Below are positions 16,506 to 27,288 of a DNA stretch of 33,404 nt, in pieces (the first letter of the stretch is position 1; each line of letters opens with the position of its first letter). Made by a program: the position numbers and the translations under genes. The notes below the pieces were generated by a model, which was not told the DNA's origin, made no database searches, and saw only the letters and a list, made by a program, of their open reading frames with translations. This DNA is from Sphaerochaetaceae bacterium (GTDB lineage: Bacteria; Spirochaetota; Spirochaetia; Sphaerochaetales; Sphaerochaetaceae). The stretch is taken from the NCBI GenBank assembly GCA_016938475.1, contig JAFGUP010000218.1:1-33404 (forward strand), read 5' to 3'.

Positions 16506-17615
16506 ATGGTGGAAGACCGACAGTACATGGAACGTGCTCTGAGAGCAGCCGCAAGAGGTAGTGGAAATACGCGACCGAACCCTCTTGTCGGTGCCGTTAT
16601 AGTTCGCGATGGTGAAGTCATCGGTGAAGGCTGGCATGAAGCATACGGCACAGCACACGCTGAAGTGAATGCCTTGAACAGAGCTGGCGAGGCAGCTGCG
16701 GGTGCGACCATGTACGTCACCCTGGAACCTTGTTCCCACCACGGTAAGACCCCTCCCTGCTGTGAAGCTATCGTGAAAGCCGGGATCACCCGGCTCGTAT
16801 GCCCCATGGTCGACCCGAATCCTCAGGTGAGAGGAAGGGGCTTTGACTATCTGAGGGAGCATGGTGTCGAAGTTATCACCGGTATCATGGAGGAGGAAGC
16901 AGAGAAGCTCAACGAGGTCTTCCTGCATTACATCACCACTTCCCGTCCATTCGTCACCGTCAAGACAGCTATGTCTCTGGATGGCAAGATCGCCACAGCA
17001 ACCGGCAGCAGCAGGTGGATCTCGGGTGAAGAATCCCGTGCGTATGTGCATACTCTGCGCCATCAGAGTGCAGCCATAGCCGTTGGTGTGAACACCATTA
17101 TCGCAGATGATCCGCTTCTCACGACCCGTCTGGAAGGGAAGATATCTCGTAATCCACTGAGAGTCATCTACGATTCATCAGGAAGGACCCCGCTCGAAGC
17201 ACGAGTGCTCAACACTCTGAACCTCTCAGCGGTCCTCATCTTCTCTACACCTGCACTCACACCTCAGCAAAGACACCTGTATGAACAGAAGGGAGCACAG
17301 GTGATCATTCTGAACGGTAGTGATCGCGCTGAATTGGTGCGTGAATCCTTGAGAATTCTCGCAGAGAAACAGATCGACTCTCTTCTTGTCGAAGGAGGGG
17401 GTACCCTCATTGATTCGTTCTTTGCAGCTGACTCCGTGAACCGTTATATCACACACATCGCACCGATGATCATCGGCGGGGCAACTGCATTGACCCCCGT
17501 GGCAGGGCAAGGAGTTGACTCCTTAGAGAAAGCCTGTCGTTTCGGTGAAGTGGAGGTGCATCGTATGGGCGAGGATATCGTCCTGTTCGCTACAGGCAGA
17601 AGGAAGGGTAGGTAG
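16506..17615 (+). CDS. ribD: Bifunctional riboflavin biosynthesis deaminase/reductase RibD, 369 aa
   Basis: Carries out the second and third steps after GTP opening: deamination of the pyrimidine, then reduction of the ribose. The deaminase domain (about 1-145) has the zinc site His51 and Glu53 (HAEVNAL), Cys76 (LEPCSHHG) and Cys85 (TPPC). The reductase domain follows from about residue 147 (TVKTAMSLDGKIA, LLVEGGGTLI). The start at 16506 gives the usual short lead before YMERAL; an in-frame ATG six codons later is an alternative. It is the first gene of the riboswitch-controlled operon and abuts ribE. Confidence 0.96.
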   Translation: MVEDRQYMERALRAAARGSGNTRPNPLVGAVIVRDGEVIGEGWHEAYGTAHAEVNALNRAGEAAAGATMYVTLEPCSHHGKTPPCCEAIVKAGITRLVCPMVDPNPQVRGRGFDYLREHGVEVITGIMEEEAEKLNEVFLHYITTSRPFVTVKTAMSLDGKIATATGSSRWISGEESRAYVHTLRHQSAAIAVGVNTIIADDPLLTTRLEGKISRNPLRVIYDSSGRTPLEARVLNTLNLSAVLIFSTPALTPQQRHLYEQKGAQVIILNGSDRAELVRESLRILAEKQIDSLLVEGGGTLIDSFFAADSVNRYITHIAPMIIGGATALTPVAGQGVDSLEKACRFGEVEVHRMGEDIVLFATGRRKGR

Positions 17616-18251
17616 ATGTTCACCGGACTGATAGAAGAGGTGGGAGCACTGAGAAGCAGAGAGCATACCTCACTCACTATAGCCTGCACACAGCTGCAGG
17701 ATGATCTTGCTCTAGGAGACAGTGTAGCGGTGAACGGTGTCTGTCTCACGGTCACATGGTTTGACAGATCATCATTACGTGCCGAGGTGATGCCTGTGAC
17801 ACTGAGAACCACCAATCTCGGTTCACTCAGGAAAGACGAGCCGGTTCATCTGGAACGTGCTATGAAGATCACTGCCCGCCTCGGCGGGCACCTCGTTGCA
17901 GGTCATGTGGATGCGACGATACCTGTGCTTGCAAAGGCAGCTGAGAAAGATGCACTGCTCATCACACTTGCCATCCCGAAAGAGTTTCAACCGTTCATCA
18001 TTCATAGAGGGTCGGTTGCTCTCGATGGGGTAAGTCTCACGGTTGCCGACCTGTCAGAGAAGGACTTTACCGTCTCGCTGGTCGGGCATACCCGTGATCA
18101 TACCGCCCTGGCAGACAGGCGTGTCGGTCAGCAGGTGAACCTTGAGTGTGACCAGATCGGCAAGTATGTGTATCACCAGCTCTCTGCTGCAAACGGGAGC
18201 GGTTCACAGAAGATAACCTATGAGATGCTTTCAAAAGAAGGCTTTCTGTAA
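17616..18251 (+). CDS. ribE: Riboflavin synthase alpha subunit, 211 aa
   Basis: Dismutates two lumazine molecules to riboflavin. It starts with the family signature MFTGLIEEVG and has two similar halves: GDSVAVNGVCLTV in the first, and GSVALDGVSLTV in the second. The GGHLVAGHVD segment is also present. The length is typical. The ATG directly follows the ribD stop, with its ribosome-binding site (AGGAAGGG) inside ribD. Confidence 0.95.
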   Translation: MFTGLIEEVGALRSREHTSLTIACTQLQDDLALGDSVAVNGVCLTVTWFDRSSLRAEVMPVTLRTTNLGSLRKDEPVHLERAMKITARLGGHLVAGHVDATIPVLAKAAEKDALLITLAIPKEFQPFIIHRGSVALDGVSLTVADLSEKDFTVSLVGHTRDHTALADRRVGQQVNLECDQIGKYVYHQLSAANGSGSQKITYEMLSKEGFL

Positions 18252-18284
18252 ACAAAAGTATCAAAAAAGATATGGAGGAGAAAT

Positions 18285-19517
18285 ATGAAACTGAATAGTG
18301 TCAGAGAGGCCGTTGAGGCTATACGAGCAGGCGGTATCGCAGTCGTCATAGACGATATGGACAGGGAACATGAAGGAGATCTCATTGCAGCTGCAGAGCT
18401 GGCTTCTCCCGAGGTGATCAATTTCATGGTCACCCACGGACGTGGTCTTGTCTGTGTTCCGCTTGAACGATCCATCGTGGAAGAGCTTAACCTCCCGGCT
18501 ATGACACGGAAGAACAGAGACCCCATGGGAACCGCCTTCACGATAAGCGTCGATCATCGAGATACCACCACCGGTATCTCCGCCTATGAGCGTGCACTGA
18601 GCATTCAGCGCCTCGGTGCAGAAGATGCGCGTGAGGACGAGTTCAACTCTCCCGGACACGTATTCCCTCTCATCGCGGCCGACGGGGGTGTGATTTCCAG
18701 GCCGGGGCATACCGAGGCAGCCGTAGATCTGGCTCAGGCAGCGGGACTGCGCCCTGCAGGTGTTATCTGTGAGATTCTCAAGGAGGACGGAACGATGGCG
18801 CGAACTGATGACCTGATCGAATTCGCACAGACGCATCGGCTTCCTGTCATCACCATAGCCCAGCTCATTCAGTGGAGAAAGGATGAGAATCGTGAACGAT
18901 TCGTACTTGATTCTACCGTATCCCTACCGACACAGTATGGTGAGTTCACCCTTCACACCTACGTTCATCAGGAAAGCGGCGAGCACCACCTTGCCCTTGT
19001 GATGGGGGATATCAGTTCCGACGAACACTCTAAGCCTCCTCTTGTCAGAGTGCACAGTGAATGCCTCACAGGAGATGTCCTGCATTCGCTTCGATGTGAT
19101 TGCGGACAGCAGCTCGATGCATCTCTCGAGCGAATCGCTGCGGAAGGACGGGGTGCTGTCATCTATCTTCGCCAGGAGGGCAGGGGTATCGGGCTGGTCA
19201 ATAAGATGAGGGCCTACCGGCTCCAGGAGCAGGGGTATGACACTGTGCAGGCGAATATAGAGCTGGGTTTTGCAGCCGATGAACGGAACTATGAAGTAGC
19301 CGCCACGATCCTGAGCGATCTGGGGGTGAAACAGGTCCGTCTTCTGACGAACAATCCTGATAAAGTGAATGGGCTTGAGAACAGCGGAATTACAGTGGCG
19401 GAACGTCTAGCGATCGTCACTGCTCTGTACGATTCTAACCGAACCTATATGCAGGTGAAATCAACCAAGATGGGACACCTGTACCAGGTAGAGAGTCACG
19501 AACTTAAAGCAATATAG
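18285..19517 (+). CDS. ribBA: Bifunctional DHBP synthase / GTP cyclohydrolase II, 410 aa
   Basis: Makes both riboflavin precursors. The N-terminal RibB domain (about 1-200) has the acidic motif [19 protein letters not shown] and [11 protein letters not shown]. The C-terminal RibA domain has the zinc cysteines in [18 protein letters not shown], the catalytic loop RQEGRGIGL and LLTNNPDKV. Both domains look complete. GGAGGAG lies just upstream of the ATG. It is third in the order ribD-ribE-ribBA-ribH, which is the Bacillus order. Confidence 0.96.
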
Positions 19518-19540
19518 ATCAACAGACGAAGGAGACATCT

Positions 19541-20020
19541 ATGAACACGATACACACGATCCAGGGAAATCTGGTAGCACAGGGAAAGCGTTTCGCTATA
19601 GTTGCGGCGCGATTCAACGAGTTTATCACCTCAAAGCTGATAGACGGAGCACATGATGCTTTGACCCGTCATGGGGTTGATGAAAAAGACATCACCCTCT
19701 CCTGGTGTCCGGGAGCCTATGAGATCCCCATGGTGGCAAAGAAACTCGCACTCAAGGATGAGTACGATGCCGTGATCTGTCTCGGGTGCGTGATCAGAGG
19801 CAGTACACCGCACTTCGACTATGTAGCTGCAGAGGTGGCAAAGGGAATCGGAAAGGTCTCTTTAGATGTCGACAAACCGGTCATCTTCGGTGTTCTGACC
19901 ACTGAGAACATTGAGCAGGCGATAGAAAGAGCCGGCACGAAATCAGGAAACAAGGGGTTTGACGCTGCTCAGGCTGCCATCGAAATGGTCAACCTGTATG
20001 ATGAGATAGCGAGAGCTTAA
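19541..20020 (+). CDS. ribH: Lumazine synthase, 159 aa
   Basis: Condenses the RibD and RibB products to lumazine; family members form 60-subunit shells or pentamers. Conserved parts seen are [41 protein letters not shown] and [15 protein letters not shown], and the length is normal. AAGGAG precedes the ATG. It ends only two bases from the stop of the convergent macrodomain gene, and no terminator is visible between them. Confidence 0.96.
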
Positions 20021-20022
20021 CC

Positions 20023-20517
20023 TCATTGTAGCCTTGAAAGGTGGTCAAACAGTTTTCGTGTGAGAATCACCAGATAGACTTCATGATCATGACGGGAGAG
20101 AAAGCTTTCGATAGAAGACACAGCTACCCGGTAAGCATCATCGACCGGGTAGCCATAAATTCCCGATGAGATCAGGGGAAATGCTATCGAGGTAAAACCT
20201 TCTCTCAGACACACCTCGAGGGAGCGGGTGTAACACGATGCAAGGAGTTTGGCCTCAGAGTGAGTGCCTCCTGTGTACACAGGTCCTGCCGCATGGATGA
20301 TCTTCTTTGCGTGAAGGGCAAAGCCATCGGTAACGGCAACTTCTCCCGTTTTCACCGGAGGGAGTTTTCTGCATGCAGCAGAGAGCGCCTCTTTACCGGC
20401 AGCGTGAAAAATTGCGCCGCACACTCCACCGCCCATGGAAAGTCGTGTGTTGGCGGCATTGACAATCACATCAACTTCCATCTCCGTAATATCTCCCTGG
20501 ATCAGATGAAACGGCAT
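20023..20517 (-). CDS. Macrodomain protein (ADP-ribose binding, probable hydrolase), 164 aa
   Basis: A single macrodomain covers the whole protein. Motifs of the MacroD/YmdB group are QGDITEMEVDVIVNAAN, the GGGVCGAIFHAAG loop, IIHAAGPVY and the phosphate loop SSGIYGYP. Family members bind ADP-ribose and remove O-acetyl or ADP-ribosyl groups. The start at 20517 follows GGAGGTG by about 5 bases; an extension of 8 residues upstream has no ribosome-binding site. It diverges from the helicase gene; a functional link is possible but unproven. Confidence 0.92.
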   Translation of the reverse strand: MPFHLIQGDITEMEVDVIVNAANTRLSMGGGVCGAIFHAAGKEALSAACRKLPPVKTGEVAVTDGFALHAKKIIHAAGPVYTGGTHSEAKLLASCYTRSLEVCLREGFTSIAFPLISSGIYGYPVDDAYRVAVSSIESFLSRHDHEVYLVILTRKLFDHLSRLQ

Positions 20518-20623
20518 GGGTACACCTCCAGTTCTCATCATATCATGGTAATCGCCTTCTTTGGTGTGTATTCATGAAGCCCTGTGATATACTGACTCAG
20601 AACATTGACTGAGGGGAGGGCGT

Positions 20624-22771
20624 GTGCATACCGACAATGAATATCAATCAAAACTGGAACGTCTGCTTGTCCTGCAGGGGACTGATCCGGGATTTTTCGT
20701 CCTTGCAGTCCACTCGTTCATCGAGTCAACGCTCAGAGAACGTTATTGTCTGATGGAAGCTGAGGTCTCTTTCACTGAATTGGTGAAGGTCTTTAAAGAC
20801 GACAGCACTCAGGATGCAAAAGCCGGGCAGTATTTCAACACTCGCATCAGGATTCTTACAGCACTGAAGGAAGCTCATAAGGCTGTCAATGATGTGCGTC
20901 ACCGTTTTTCCCTCATGAGTGAAGAAGATGCCCGTATAGCAACGGTTCATCTGAAGGAGTTCTGCTCTCTGGTCGGCATCCCTGACTCTACGGTACTTGT
21001 CCGCCTCCATGAATATCTATCGCTATGGGATGCCAGGAAGCCGCTTGGAGTACTCTGGGATGAATATGAACGGCTTTACCGGGAACACCTGATACAACAG
21101 AAAGAGAAGGAGGACCTCATTGATGACATGATGGTTCTCACTGAACTGCAGCAGACAACTCAGTGGTTGAATGTTCAGCTCATCATCATGAATCAGGACA
21201 TGAAGAAGGTGGAACTGCTGCAAAATCGTGACCACAAGAAAATTGATGAGCTGAGAAGGAAACGGTATGAGCTGACAGAGGAACTCAAGAGAGTGAATAG
21301 TGAGGCAGCACAGCTGCAGGGGGTCCGCGTGGCCTTTGATGCACTGCAGAAGATGTCACTGTATACTCGTACGCGGGGAGATTACGAGCGGGTAGTGGTC
21401 CGGCTCTCTTTCGAACAGCAGGAAGTCGTCAATCACATCTCCCTCACTTCGGACTTCCTGATACGAGGAAGAGCAGGAACTGGAAAGACACTCGTGCTCC
21501 TCAAAGCGATGGAGAAGGTGACGGGCTCACCTGAACCGGAGGTTCCCGTGCCCTCTTACCTGCTTCTGACCTACACCAACGCACTGGTGAAATATGACCG
21601 GTATCTCCAGTCAGTCTTTGCTTCAGACCGCGATGAGGATTCACTGAAGACAGCCGATGCCTTTATGCTTGACACACTGCACTCCTTCGACCCGCTGATC
21701 ACGGTGGATGCCGACATACTTTCTGAACTTCTTGATGGAATACATATCCACCCTCTCGACAGCAAAGGAATCGCTCATGAGATCGAGAATTTCATCTGGG
21801 CAGGGGACCTCACCAAAGAAGAGTATGTCGAACAGATGGTGAAACGAGCCGGTATGTCTGTATCACTGAAACAGGATCAGAGAGAGGCGGTGTGGGGTAT
21901 CAAGGAAGAGGTGGAAGAGAAACTCGCACAGCGTGATGGCAAGCCGTTCAGGTATCTGCGATATCTTCTTCTGCGTAACCTCGAGACATGTGAAGACTTC
22001 TCAGCCTTTCAAGTTGATTATCTGTTCGTTGATGAAGCTCAGGACCTTGATGCCTTGACCCTCAAGGTCCTGAAGAAGCTGACCCGGCGAGCACTGATAC
22101 TTGCAGGAGACGAACAGCAGTCCATCTATCAGCAGGGTTTCAGTTTCAAACGGGCAGGTATCGACATCGTCGGTACAAGCAGACTGCTGACACTCAATTT
22201 CAGGAACTCTGTCCAGATTCACTCACTGGCAGAGCGGTACAGAACGAACTCAGGGAAGCAGAGCGCGAGAGAGACGGGGGTGGAAGCTTTCCGGGATGGG
22301 CCCCCTGTTGAACTGTTTCAGAAGACCTCACAGACGAAGGCTCTTGCCCACATCGCAAAACGTGTGCGGTTCTTCATAGACTTTCTGGGGTATGAGAGGG
22401 AGAACATCTGCATCATCACGGTGAGTAAATCACTGTTCGGTATAATCGCCTCGGCTCTCGATGAGCAGGGTATCACATCGGAGGCGATTGTCGACGCCGA
22501 TTTCTCCTTTTCCTCAAGCGGCAGTGTCAGACTGACCACGATGCATTCGGCCAAGGGACTCGATTTCCCCGTTGTCCTTCTGTATCTCCCCGGTGCCACC
22601 CGTCAGCACAGTGAGTACGATGGGAAAGTGAACGATATGCTCCTGAGAAACCTCATCTATGTATCGCTCACACGAGCAATGGAACACCTGAATATTTTTA
22701 CTCTCTCTTCTTCCTCGTGTCATGCCATACAGGATCTCAAAGCATTGGTGCCTGTGACCATAGGACCTTGA
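20624..22771 (+). CDS. UvrD/Rep-like superfamily 1 helicase with HEPN/DUF4145-like N-terminal region, 715 aa
   Basis: ATP-driven DNA or RNA translocase. The GTG start is preceded by GAGGGGAGG. Helicase motifs are Walker A GRAGTGKT (about 282-289), motif II DEAQD, AGDEQQSIYQQG (motif III), LNFRNS (motif IV), HSAKGLDFPVVLLY (motif V) and YVSLTRAMEHL (motif VI). The first 130 residues are helical, with AVHSFIESTLRERY and KAVNDVRHRF; the latter resembles the N-x-x-RH pattern of HEPN/DUF4145 domains of type I restriction enzymes. A coiled coil (about 150-235) follows. There is no nuclease motif that I can see. Such stand-alone helicases occur in repair and in phage defence; I cannot tell which applies. 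Confidence 0.9.
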   Translation: MHTDNEYQSKLERLLVLQGTDPGFFVLAVHSFIESTLRERYCLMEAEVSFTELVKVFKDDSTQDAKAGQYFNTRIRILTALKEAHKAVNDVRHRFSLMSEEDARIATVHLKEFCSLVGIPDSTVLVRLHEYLSLWDARKPLGVLWDEYERLYREHLIQQKEKEDLIDDMMVLTELQQTTQWLNVQLIIMNQDMKKVELLQNRDHKKIDELRRKRYELTEELKRVNSEAAQLQGVRVAFDALQKMSLYTRTRGDYERVVVRLSFEQQEVVNHISLTSDFLIRGRAGTGKTLVLLKAMEKVTGSPEPEVPVPSYLLLTYTNALVKYDRYLQSVFASDRDEDSLKTADAFMLDTLHSFDPLITVDADILSELLDGIHIHPLDSKGIAHEIENFIWAGDLTKEEYVEQMVKRAGMSVSLKQDQREAVWGIKEEVEEKLAQRDGKPFRYLRYLLLRNLETCEDFSAFQVDYLFVDEAQDLDALTLKVLKKLTRRALILAGDEQQSIYQQGFSFKRAGIDIVGTSRLLTLNFRNSVQIHSLAERYRTNSGKQSARETGVEAFRDGPPVELFQKTSQTKALAHIAKRVRFFIDFLGYERENICIITVSKSLFGIIASALDEQGITSEAIVDADFSFSSSGSVRLTTMHSAKGLDFPVVLLYLPGATRQHSEYDGKVNDMLLRNLIYVSLTRAMEHLNIFTLSSSSCHAIQDLKALVPVTIGP

Positions 22772-23616: not shown

Positions 23617-23862
23617 TCAACTGACCTTGACAGTCAGTGTGGAGTTAAGCGCCTGAGCAATATCTACAAGTTTGCCGATGGTGAAATTTCTCGTTCCGTT
23701 CAGGATCTGTGTGATATTGGCCGGTGAGGTATTCATGGTTCTTGCAAGGTCTGCCTTTGTGACACCTTTTTCTTTCATCACCCTATAGATGTCCTCTGTT
23801 ATGGTATGTATGTACAAGAATTTTCCGCTATCCGTTTCCTGTGTTGCACTTTCCTTCAACAT
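23617..23862 (-). CDS. Xre-family HTH protein, antitoxin-like, 81 aa
   Basis: A DNA-binding helix-turn-helix fills residues about 18-72 (KADLARTMNTSPANITQILNG), followed by the TIGKLVDIAQALNSTLTV tail common in HigA-type antitoxins and small Xre regulators. AGGAG lies 8 bases before the ATG. No toxin-sized frame precedes it: the 250 bases upstream hold only a promoter and hairpins. It may be an orphan antitoxin or a stand-alone regulator. It converges on the FMN-binding gene. Confidence 0.85.
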   Translation of the reverse strand: MLKESATQETDSGKFLYIHTITEDIYRVMKEKGVTKADLARTMNTSPANITQILNGTRNFTIGKLVDIAQALNSTLTVKVS

Positions 23863-24172: not shown

Positions 24173-24799
24173 TTATGCACTTGAAAGATTCCACCTGGCA
24201 CTATCGGGCAATTCTTCTGAAGTGAGAGAAAAGGCCGGGTCTATCTTATGGATAAAATACGCATGTACTCTCGGGTCCTCTGTCAGCTCTGGATGGAAGG
24301 CTGTCACCAGACAGGTATCGCTCTCTGCTGCTACGATCCTCCCTTCATGGTTCGCCAGAGGACGGACATTACAACCACAGGAGGTGATGTACGGTGCCCG
24401 AATGAATCGCATCGGAATCCGCCCGAGGCCGGCGAACGTTTGATAGCTGTGAAAACTACCCAGCTGTCTTCCATACCCGTTGCGTTGAACCGATATCGGC
24501 AGTGTTCCCAGGTGAGGGCTCTCCTGCCCCTCTATATCGTGTGCAAGGAGGATCAGACCGGCACAGGTGCCGAACACCGGTAGACCTTCACTGATCATGT
24601 CCTTCAGAAAACCAAAGAGGTTTCGAGAGTGCAGGAGTCTACCCATTACGGTAGACTCTCCCCCGGGAATGATAAGGCCATCCATCTCCCTGTTCAGGTG
24701 TGAGCTGTCCCTGATCTCAAAAGAGTTCACGCCGATGCGTTTCAGCATCTTCGTATGCTCTTCAAATCCGCCCTGCAGGCCAAGTACTCCGATCGTCAT
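24173..24799 (-). CDS. pdxT: Pyridoxal 5'-phosphate synthase glutaminase subunit PdxT, 208 aa
   Basis: Releases ammonia from glutamine for PdxS. Class I glutaminase parts are [12 protein letters not shown], the glutamine-binding [11 protein letters not shown], the nucleophile Cys in [11 protein letters not shown], and the His and Glu of the triad in [13 protein letters not shown]. The length is slightly above the usual 190-200 because of a short C-terminal tail. Its ATG overlaps the pdxS stop (ATGA), so the two subunits are translationally coupled. Confidence 0.96.
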
Positions 24800-25671
24800 A
24801 CTCCGCGCTCCGCCATCAACAGGGCGATCTCCTGTTCGTTGATACCGACCATGGCCTCTCCAAGGTTCTCTGACAACCGTGCAAGAAGGATGGGGTCCTG
24901 ATAGCCGGTCACTGCTTCTACGATCGCACGGGAGCGTTTTACGGGATCGCCCGACTTGAAAATTCCCGAACCGACGAAGACACCCTCAGCACCAAGTTGC
25001 ATCATCAGAGCAGCATCAGCGGGGGTGGCGATGCCTCCGGCAGCAAAGTTGACTACAGGGAGTGCCCCCTTCTCTGCCACCTCTGCAAGGAGATCGAAGG
25101 GAACCTGAAGGTCCTTTGCCACCTGATACAGTTCATCTTCTCTCAGTCCGTGAACGTGTCTGATCTCATGCTGCAGTCCTCTCATATGACGCACTGCCTG
25201 GATGATATCTCCAGTTCCCGGTTCTCCTTTGGTCCTGATCATCGAAGCACCTTCACTGATTCTTCTCAGTGCTTCACCTAGATCTCTCGCACCGCAGACA
25301 AAAGGAACCCTGAATGCTCTCTTGTTGATGTGGTACACATCGTCAGCCGGACTGAGTACCTCACTTTCATCGATGTAGTCGATCTCGATGGCTTCAAGGA
25401 TCTGTGCCTCCGTGAAGTGTCCGATTCGGACCTTCGCCATGACCGGGATTGAGACCGCTTCCTGGATACTGCGTATCATGGCAGGATCACTCATCCGTGA
25501 CACTCCTCCTGCTGCCCGGATATCTGCAGGGATCCTTTCAAGTGCCATCACAGCGCATGCTCCTGCATCTTCAGCGATTCTTGCTTGTTCGACGGTGGTC
25601 ACATCCATGATGACACCACCTTTGAGCATCTGTGCAAGATTCTTATTCAATTCGTACTGTTCTGTGTTCAT
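24796..25671 (-). CDS. pdxS: Pyridoxal 5'-phosphate synthase subunit PdxS, 291 aa
   Basis: Builds PLP from ribose 5-phosphate, glyceraldehyde 3-phosphate and ammonia from PdxT; it acts as a 12-mer barrel. Seen are [26 protein letters not shown], the catalytic Lys in [10 protein letters not shown], the second Lys in [13 protein letters not shown], and the phosphate-binding [10 protein letters not shown] and [11 protein letters not shown]. The length is typical. GGAGG lies 9 bases before the ATG. It is expressed divergently from the PdxR-like activator. Confidence 0.97.
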
Positions 25672-25855: not shown

Positions 25856-25896
25856 CAGAATAGTTAATTATAATGGTACCAAAGGAGGTTGTCGTA

Positions 25897-27288
25897 ATGA
25901 ATGGAGATACAACGGAAGAAGTGAGACATCTGTATATGAAGGTGTATGAGTACATGAAAGATCTGATCATATCAGGTGCCTATGCATTCGGTGAGAAGAT
26001 TCCTTCAAAACGGGCTCTTGCTTCACTCCTGCATTGTTCATTGAATACTGTTCAAAGTGCTTATGGACAGCTGGTTGATGAAGGCTATCTTATCGCAAAG
26101 GAGAAAAAAGGCTACTATGTAGCAAATCTCGAGGGGGTAGCCGCGGATATGAGACAGGTGGAACCTATCGAGGTCTCTCAGCGGCAGGTTGTTTTGTTCC
26201 GCTACAACTTTTCCTATCAGGGGATAGATCTGAGCGCTTTTCCCATTACTGTGTGGCGTCGTCTCACCCGTGAGGTTCTCAGTGATGAGACGCGGAGTTT
26301 CCTGGAATCAGGGAACCCCAAAGGGGAGTGGGACTTGAGGGTGAGTATCGCAACTTACCTGAGGCTTTCACGGGGCGTTCAGTGCACACCCAATCAGATC
26401 CTCATCGGAAGCGGCACCGAGTATCTTCTTCAGCTTCTCATCCAGCTGTTTGATGCGGAGACTGTGTATGCGATAGAGAATCCCGGGTATGAGAAACTTG
26501 CTCTCATGTTCACTCGAGCGAGAGTGTCGTTTCGCCCCATCAATGTAGATGAATCAGGTCTGGTTCCGCAGAGCCTTGCCGACAGCGATGCTGATGTGGT
26601 GTGCATAACTCCCTCCCACCAGTTTCCGACCGGGTCTATCATGCCGGTCGGAAGGAGGGTGCAGCTGCTGAGCTGGGCTCAGGAGAAAGAGGGCCGATAT
26701 ATCATCGAGGACGATTATGACAGTGAGTTCCGGTTTGCAGGGAAACCGATTCCCTCCCTTCAGGGGCTTGATCAGAGCGGGCGTGTGATCTATCTCGGTT
26801 CATTCAGCAAGTCATTGTTCCCTTCTCTTAGAATCAGTTATCTTGTCCTGCCTGATCAGCTTATCTACCGGTATGATGAGGTGTTGAGCTTTACAGTATG
26901 TCCTGTGCCCCTTACAGAACAGCTCACGCTTGCCCATTTCCTTTCTCGAGGTCATTTTGATCGTCATCTCAACAGGATGAGAAAGCTCTACAGGGGAAAA
27001 CGGGATACATTGGTGGCAGCCTTGAAAGCCTCATTTTCCGGTATACGAATCGAAGGGGCCTCCGGAGGATGCCATCTTCTTGTACATCTTGACTCTCAGA
27101 TTCCTGAGGAGATTTTCGTACGCAGGGCGGCAGAGGCCGGGGTGAAAGTCTACGCTCTTTCCCGCTTTTTCTGTGCCAGGACTCAGAGACCGAGAACGAG
27201 TACTCTCCTGCTTGGCTATGCATCCCTTTCTCTGCAGGAGATACAGGATGCGGTAGAGCTTCTCAAAGTGGCGTGGAATGTGCTGTGA
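25897..27288 (+). CDS. pdxR: MocR-type PLP-responsive regulator, PdxR-like, 463 aa
   Basis: A GntR-type winged helix (about 8-75; KIPSKRALASLLHCSLNTVQSAY) is fused to a type I aminotransferase fold that senses PLP. The fold shows SGTEYLLQLL, TPSHQFPTGSIMP, the Asp/Tyr pair in IEDDYDSEFRF and the PLP lysine in GSFSKSLFPSLRISY. The start at 25897 follows AAAGGAGGT by 7 bases; an upstream Met in frame would place this site inside the gene. Divergence from pdxST is the usual PdxR setting, where PLP switches activation of pdxST. It ends 4 bp from the convergent cupin gene. Confidence 0.93.
   Translation: MNGDTTEEVRHLYMKVYEYMKDLIISGAYAFGEKIPSKRALASLLHCSLNTVQSAYGQLVDEGYLIAKEKKGYYVANLEGVAADMRQVEPIEVSQRQVVLFRYNFSYQGIDLSAFPITVWRRLTREVLSDETRSFLESGNPKGEWDLRVSIATYLRLSRGVQCTPNQILIGSGTEYLLQLLIQLFDAETVYAIENPGYEKLALMFTRARVSFRPINVDESGLVPQSLADSDADVVCITPSHQFPTGSIMPVGRRVQLLSWAQEKEGRYIIEDDYDSEFRFAGKPIPSLQGLDQSGRVIYLGSFSKSLFPSLRISYLVLPDQLIYRYDEVLSFTVCPVPLTEQLTLAHFLSRGHFDRHLNRMRKLYRGKRDTLVAALKASFSGIRIEGASGGCHLLVHLDSQIPEEIFVRRAAEAGVKVYALSRFFCARTQRPRTSTLLLGYASLSLQEIQDAVELLKVAWNVL

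Follow-up and report, generated by a model that had tools for sequence, protein, structure and literature searches.

The window examined here is a 33,404-nucleotide stretch of DNA from a Sphaerochaetaceae bacterium (GenBank assembly GCA_016938475.1, contig JAFGUP010000218.1), corresponding to contig C16 of a 3.07 Mb genome. On its + strand lies a gene (20624..22771, stop codon included; GTG start codon at 20624) for a 715-aa helicase, in which a HEPN-like N-terminal domain is followed by a putative coiled coil and a UvrD-type core of superfamily 1A (SF1A), as judged from the list of open reading frames, Pfam, an AlphaFold2 model and Foldseek. It appears fairly probable that this is an accessory anti-phage protein of defence islands, which joins the HEPN-like domain through a linker of long helices to an intact translocase of the UvrD type, and that the macrodomain gene next to it is an unrelated neighbour. 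We read it as a member of a patchy defence-island family of HEPN–coil–helicases. As a component of bacterial immunity the helicase has probably been missed so far, because its relatives in other bacteria repeatedly adjoin or sit within known anti-phage systems. A first-pass annotation had already placed both genes correctly, in divergent orientation, and the reading frames and Pfam bear out its macrodomain and its helicase, the latter being of the UvrD type.

The N-terminal domain (residues 1-136; 20624..21031, + strand) is, as far as modelling and profile comparison indicate, HEPN-like and related to DUF4145. Modelled alone, as in all structure predictions here as a single chain, it reached a predicted local distance difference test score (pLDDT) of 89.6 and a predicted template modelling score (pTM) of 0.85, with six helices (residues 4-17, 22-41, 50-65, 70-94, 100-116 and 123-135). 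The first 26 ranks of a VIA-align comparison are taken by chains of the HEPN superfamily, except 3mfn, which could not be assigned (Z 9.2-6.2; 95-122 residues aligned at a root-mean-square deviation of 2.9-5.5); the first unrelated row follows at Z 5.6. Among the top chains are HepT/HEPN toxins, Csm6, AbiV, the sacsin HEPN domain, YutE, MtlR and LinB, and their titles mostly say HEPN. Csm6 and AbiV are HEPN proteins, and 1wty is presumably a HEPN chain as well. In the literature, 1wwp, 1ylm, 1o3u, 3jyy and MtlR are classed as HEPN (PMC3710099). VIA-align itself cautions that Z scores below about 13 can be common among helical bundles, and the HEPN call therefore rests on the uniformity of the list together with an independent hhalign test. 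The same caution applies to the compact, all-helical bundle characteristic of the superfamily, which is seen both in the model and in the VIA-align ranking.

In the hhalign test, the alignment of the N-terminal region matched DUF4145 domains from genomes of the class with a score of 25.2 over 94 columns (probability 19%), compared with 15.1 or less for the nulls (reversed, 20 column-shuffled and other-segment alignments). The match places N89 and H93 upon the conserved GN...H of DUF4145. Members of the Pfam HEPN family (PF05168) matched weakly, with 18.7 against 15.6 for the best null, and DUF4145 is therefore the closer relative. The residues concerned belong to a HEPN-like motif, H-x3-N-x-V-R-H-x-F (residues 85-95; 20876..20908, + strand), which is well conserved among 49 relatives: N89 is found in 43, V91 in 44 (isoleucine in the other 5), R92 in 44, H93 in 47 and F95 in 48, and E34 of the same domain in all 49. 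The N-x-x-R-H pattern singled out by the first-pass annotation is thus real and conserved, chance being excluded, and the model likewise shows the helical N-terminus and the subsequent coiled coil which it had described. Its suspicion of a HEPN fold was well placed, and the modelled domain does not resemble an ordinary helicase accessory domain. When solved chains were searched with a sequence profile, the matches began only at E 0.02 and included interleukin-10 and spectrin, with no HEPN chain among them; these were judged to be chance matches between helical proteins.

The helicase core (residues ~258-705; 21395..22738, + strand) is intact. It carries the Walker A motif GRAGTGKT at residues 282-289 and DEAQD at residues 470-474, and Pfam recognises UvrD-helicase (PF00580; E 3.4e-14, 53.6 bits at a cut-off of 23) and UvrD_C (E 1.4e-9), placing it in the UvrD/Rep group of SF1A. 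The motif residues G282, G285, G287, K288, D470, E471, Q473, D474, D496, Q499, R527, K644, G645 and R684 are invariant in the 49 aligned relatives, which agrees with the helicase motifs read earlier from the translation. UvrD models match all 49, and no HEPN or DUF4145 model occurs among the 25 Pfam models most frequent over these relatives. One alignment (A1) omits L005 (in-frame stop), L062, L066 and L072, the other (A2) L012/L052 (N-terminus differs), L045, L066 and L202. An AlphaFold2 model of the whole helicase, built from 49 sequences, reached a pLDDT of 83.8 and a pTM of 0.74, and its best Foldseek matches are PcrA, UvrD and Rep. Between the N-terminal helices and the core, the linker (residues ~141-245; 21044..21358, + strand) forms long helices in the model (141-244), as a coiled coil would, and it gives weak matches to Pfam models of the coiled-coil type. 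The top PADLOC match of the helicase, C3a187 (NERD+UvrD), is strongest over residues 465-693, and that of PHROG 1967 (DNA helicase) starts at residue 149; among the models listed from PADLOC, Pfam and NCBIfam, none spans the N-terminal domain.

Of the 297 genomes of the class, 59 contain relatives of the helicase, in several cases as multiple matches; within the window's own family, not every member has one. Among named records, full-length matches were obtained from one Spirochaetales metagenome-assembled genome (MAG) and one MAG labelled Ruminococcus, and a partial match from a Treponema MAG, which suggests that the class is that of the spirochaetes. Outside records labelled Spirochaetales or Treponema, the full-length protein is found only at L077, the locus with the Ruminococcus label, on a 4.4 kb contig that is possibly misbinned. 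The alignment-based contig search returned mostly generic UvrD motifs, and spread beyond the class is poorly sampled; a contig search with the single helicase protein as query found no relative. Viral contigs matched the helicase core only. One genome (G179) holds tandem genes of the helicase family at L070 (1-1305 and 1369-3474), the first truncated by the contig end.

The association with defence is seen at the 52 helicase loci besides the window. Genes were called there by a longest-ORF rule, which may create false neighbours in G+C-rich loci, and close relatives exist among the loci (L193 with L195, L186 with L194). Within two genes of the helicase, 148 proteins of 110-900 aa and 7 of the 8 longer than 900 aa were scanned (the 927-aa one of L179 was left out); as control, 26 regions were picked arbitrarily from helicase-carrying genomes, giving 144 proteins. 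At L211/L332 (G122), the helicase gene opens a series helicase-drmD-drmMI-drmA-drmB-drmC on one strand, with a complete DISARM system, and overlaps drmD by 4 bases. At L077, DruE of Druantia lies upstream of the helicase with 10 bases between them. Other neighbours are Cas3e at +1 (L050), a Type IV restriction gene at +1 (L213) and a DpdE/ZorD-like SNF2 gene at -2 (L198). PADLOC recognised no RtcR, DISARM, Druantia or Cas3 among the 144 control proteins. Individually verified defence or RtcR-type genes were found within two genes at 10 of the 52 loci, or at 16 if looser ones are counted; such neighbours are recurrent and non-obligate.

RtcR-like sigma-54 activators stand by the helicase at five loci (L180, L185, L200, L203 and L210). 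PF06956 exceeds its cut-off in L180 and L210, and the RtcR-PspF models of PADLOC match five neighbour proteins. The regulator of L185 (4889-6386, - strand) is broken into two overlapping frames, by nature or through an assembly frameshift. L187 was dropped as a further locus of this kind; its neighbour starts like a response regulator. L180 (G143) is possibly a composite defence locus, in which the RtcR-like regulator, a 222-aa coiled-coil-like protein and the HEPN-helicase are followed by AbiEi and an apparent AbiEii fragment. Nuclease- and helicase-type genes also adjoin the family: an RNase_H_2 + UPF1-type helicase gene at L043, in the window's own genus, a UvrD-PDDEXK gene at L181 and a UPF1-type gene with a Mokosh-like score at L182. 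DUF2779 genes lie near the helicase at three loci (L044 in G019, L193 in G258 and L195 in G293), and their product is a possible nuclease partner.

Several observations weigh against a HEPN-bearing defence protein. Pfam has no convincing match for residues 1-250, and the N-terminus does not reach the gathering cut-off of DUF4145 (PF13643). With the N-terminus as Foldseek query, no match below E 0.5 was obtained in the PDB and none below 0.17 in the viral library; searches of phage and plasmid records revealed no N-terminal homolog. The canonical arginine of the catalytic HEPN motif (R-x4-6-H) is absent: five residues before the histidine, the 49 relatives have T, V, A or S (one I), and eight residues before it 31 have histidine and 4 arginine. 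RNase activity is uncertain because of this absence. The helicase has no constant neighbour, the largest recurrent neighbour clusters covering 6 of 53 loci, and a verified defence or RtcR-type neighbour is confined to the ten loci mentioned above. None of the window helicase's own neighbours scanned (macrodomain, DUF7670, FMN-binding and HTH proteins) was recognised as a defence gene. The count of PADLOC families, 161 for the 148 helicase neighbours versus 13 for the 144 controls, is inflated, as one Cas3 matches about 25 models and the helicase-family fragment of L070 is among the 148. The proteins longer than 900 aa, the source of the DISARM, Dpd/Zorya-like and Type IV matches, have no control, and the excess of RtcR-type proteins (5/148 versus 0/144) has a p of only 0.03. 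A search for sigma-54 promoters ahead of the helicase genes yielded no convincing signal: the best placed candidate (L208) was equalled in 4% of control stretches, and the other candidates in more.

Much of this would suit an accessory helicase of repair or replication, that is, a UvrD/PcrA paralogue that uses its helical N-terminus, a HEPN fold with no enzymatic role, for protein interaction; its nearness to defence genes would reflect nothing more than the variable islands in which accessory genes of all sorts collect. Such a protein would be expected to keep all its helicase motifs and to find its closest structures in PcrA and UvrD, as observed; the missing HEPN arginine, the lack of a conserved partner and the metabolic neighbours in the window point the same way. 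However, passive co-residence poorly explains the tight, co-directional arrangements with DISARM (overlapping) and Druantia or the recurrence of RtcR-like regulators in five different families of genomes, and the patchiness of the helicase is unlike that of a core repair gene. This explanation is considered rather unlikely.

The regulators themselves suggest a response to RNA damage, in which the helicase would act on RNA or RNA–DNA hybrids and be induced via RtcR upon RNA breakage, with no phage involved. Besides the presence of RtcR-like sigma-54/CARF regulators at 5 of the 52 loci, PF06956 occurs in 25 of the 297 genomes and 2 of these 25 matches lie within three genes of a helicase, compared with an expectation of about 0.03 (an estimate assuming 3500 genes per genome). 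Genomes positive for RtcR also carry the helicase more often than the others (12/25 versus 47/272; p 0.0008, uncorrected for phylogeny). UvrD relatives work mainly on DNA, which argues against this idea, as do the missing sigma-54 promoter signal at the helicase and the 47 of 52 loci at which no such regulator was detected. HEPN domains are described as acting on RNA (PMC3710099), and RtcR-like regulators may sense cyclic-phosphate RNA ends; yet they are reported at defence loci too, namely those of restriction–modification and CoCoNuT systems (PMC4012209, PMC11090510). An RNA-damage effector independent of phages seems quite improbable.

The macrodomain gene (172 aa; 20023..20541, - strand) is separated from the divergent helicase gene by 82 bases and is judged not to belong to the helicase system. 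The macrodomain (PF01661, E 2.5e-38) had been called divergent, which holds for the orientation of its gene. By sequence it is of the ordinary YmdB/MacroD type (E 1.6e-35 to a solved structure) and resembles these enzymes in fold as well, save for the segment GGGVCGAIF in place of their GGGVDGAIH. The aspartate of this segment is catalytic in MacroD-type enzymes. Its replacement by cysteine recurs in 5 of the 29 macrodomain homologs listed (L014, L015, L016, L017 and L027, the last with GGGVCGFIF), and the sequences with GGGVC possibly form a non-hydrolysing or altered subfamily. The gene run abutting the macrodomain gene (16506-20020) resembles one for riboflavin synthesis (ribD, ribE, ribBA and ribH, named from their translations).

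The first-pass annotation had suggested the two genes as a possible defence or repair pair and named a lack of co-occurrence in other genomes as grounds against it. The defence half of this proposal has support in the neighbours of the helicase relatives, and the pairing fails. A tblastn search with the macrodomain found a homolog in none of the 52 other helicase neighbourhoods (best E 1.4). Of 61 genomes, 37 have the macrodomain, 11 the helicase and 6 both; the share of genomes with the macrodomain is no higher among those with the helicase (6/11) than among those without it (31/50; p 0.74). In genomes that have both, the two genes sit on separate contigs or, as in G004, some 970 kb from each other. 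Its position next to the helicase makes the macrodomain a chance neighbour, and a functional pair is rejected in view of the missing linkage and the absent co-occurrence. In a DarTG-like module, the helicase would be toxic through ADP-ribosylation or its HEPN domain, and the macrodomain would counter it as antitoxin or ADP-ribose eraser. Such a module has the divergent arrangement of the two adjacent genes in its favour and is nevertheless extremely unlikely, given the same linkage and co-occurrence data, a DarG model score of 15.2 bits (cut-off 250), no DarT family among the neighbours scanned, and no ADP-ribosyltransferase family in the helicase in family scans.

If the helicase is indeed an accessory anti-phage protein, its ATP-driven core may engage abnormal or invading DNA, such as single strands, ends or replication intermediates. 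HEPN domains generally dimerise, and the coiled coil could hold two chains together and thereby bring their HEPN domains into contact. Engagement might then activate the paired domains for RNA binding or cleavage; alternatively, a catalytically dead pair could recruit partners. Of these steps, the action on RNA is the most doubtful, given that the textbook HEPN arginine is absent. In some lineages, the helicase would be wired into a bigger system, as the first gene of DISARM or behind DruE, and in others it stands beside an RtcR-like CARF/sigma-54 activator of a kind published as responding to damaged RNA ends. A bolder version, which we consider unlikely, combines these steps into a one-chain immune effector, stand-alone or plug-in, in which sensing of invading DNA by the UvrD translocase would, through the coil, trigger RNA cleavage at a non-canonical HEPN site (H/N/R-H), RtcR-like CARF regulators would amplify the response via broken RNA ends, and some genomes would have plugged the protein into DISARM or Druantia.

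Should protection against phages be borne out, roughly one in five genomes sampled from the class would carry a defence gene that is not yet listed. Surveillance of DNA by a UvrD-type motor and a HEPN domain would be united in one protein, which DISARM and Druantia would have adopted as an accessory. The missing catalytic arginine makes the family well suited to the question of whether a HEPN domain can function without its textbook motif, and the removal of the macrodomain as a partner disposes of a false lead.

On the 3' side of the helicase gene, the window encodes a DUF7670 membrane protein, a flavin mononucleotide (FMN)-binding protein and a small helix-turn-helix (HTH) protein. A lone 81-aa HTH_3 protein (23617-23862, - strand) resembles antitoxin regulators (PADLOC PDC-M64C, E 5e-12), and no toxin was recognised adjacent to it. 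Further along, a pdxT/pdxS pair lies beside a divergent MocR-type regulator (24173-25671, - strand, and 25873-27288, + strand), as judged from reading the translations.

Compared with known systems, the helicase shares its SF1A core with GajB of Gabija, whose models match it at E 7.9e-19. These matches start at about residue 259 and leave the HEPN/coil half outside, and GajB needs the OLD-family nuclease GajA, which was not recognised beside the window helicase. DISARM includes a relative as the first gene of a complete operon at one locus only, whereas no DISARM gene was recognised beside the window helicase. The defence loci of CoCoNuT systems likewise encode an SF1 helicase together with HEPN domains and coiled coils, and have RtcR-like CARF regulators upstream (PMC11090510). 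They rely, however, on the UPF1-like CnuH and a McrB-type GTPase (CnuB), while here the helicase is nearest to UvrD/PcrA and joined to HEPN domain and coil in one chain, and the scan of the window genes recognised no McrB-type gene. No description of this HEPN–coil–UvrD family was found in the literature searched, as far as the available extracts extend, and the family as such is absent from PADLOC and Pfam. As a kind, HEPN/DUF4145–helicase fusions were published in 2013: HEPN domains are portrayed as mostly RNases of conflict systems, repeatedly fused to helicases, and 'UvrD Helicase' is given among the fusion partners of DUF4145 (Anantharaman et al. 2013, PMC3710099). The window helicase differs from these fusions in lacking a Pfam match to DUF4145, in the histidine that 31 of the 49 relatives have at the arginine position and in the long coiled coil between its domains, and it shares with them the DUF4145 kind of HEPN domain, the UvrD helicase and the common GN...H register.

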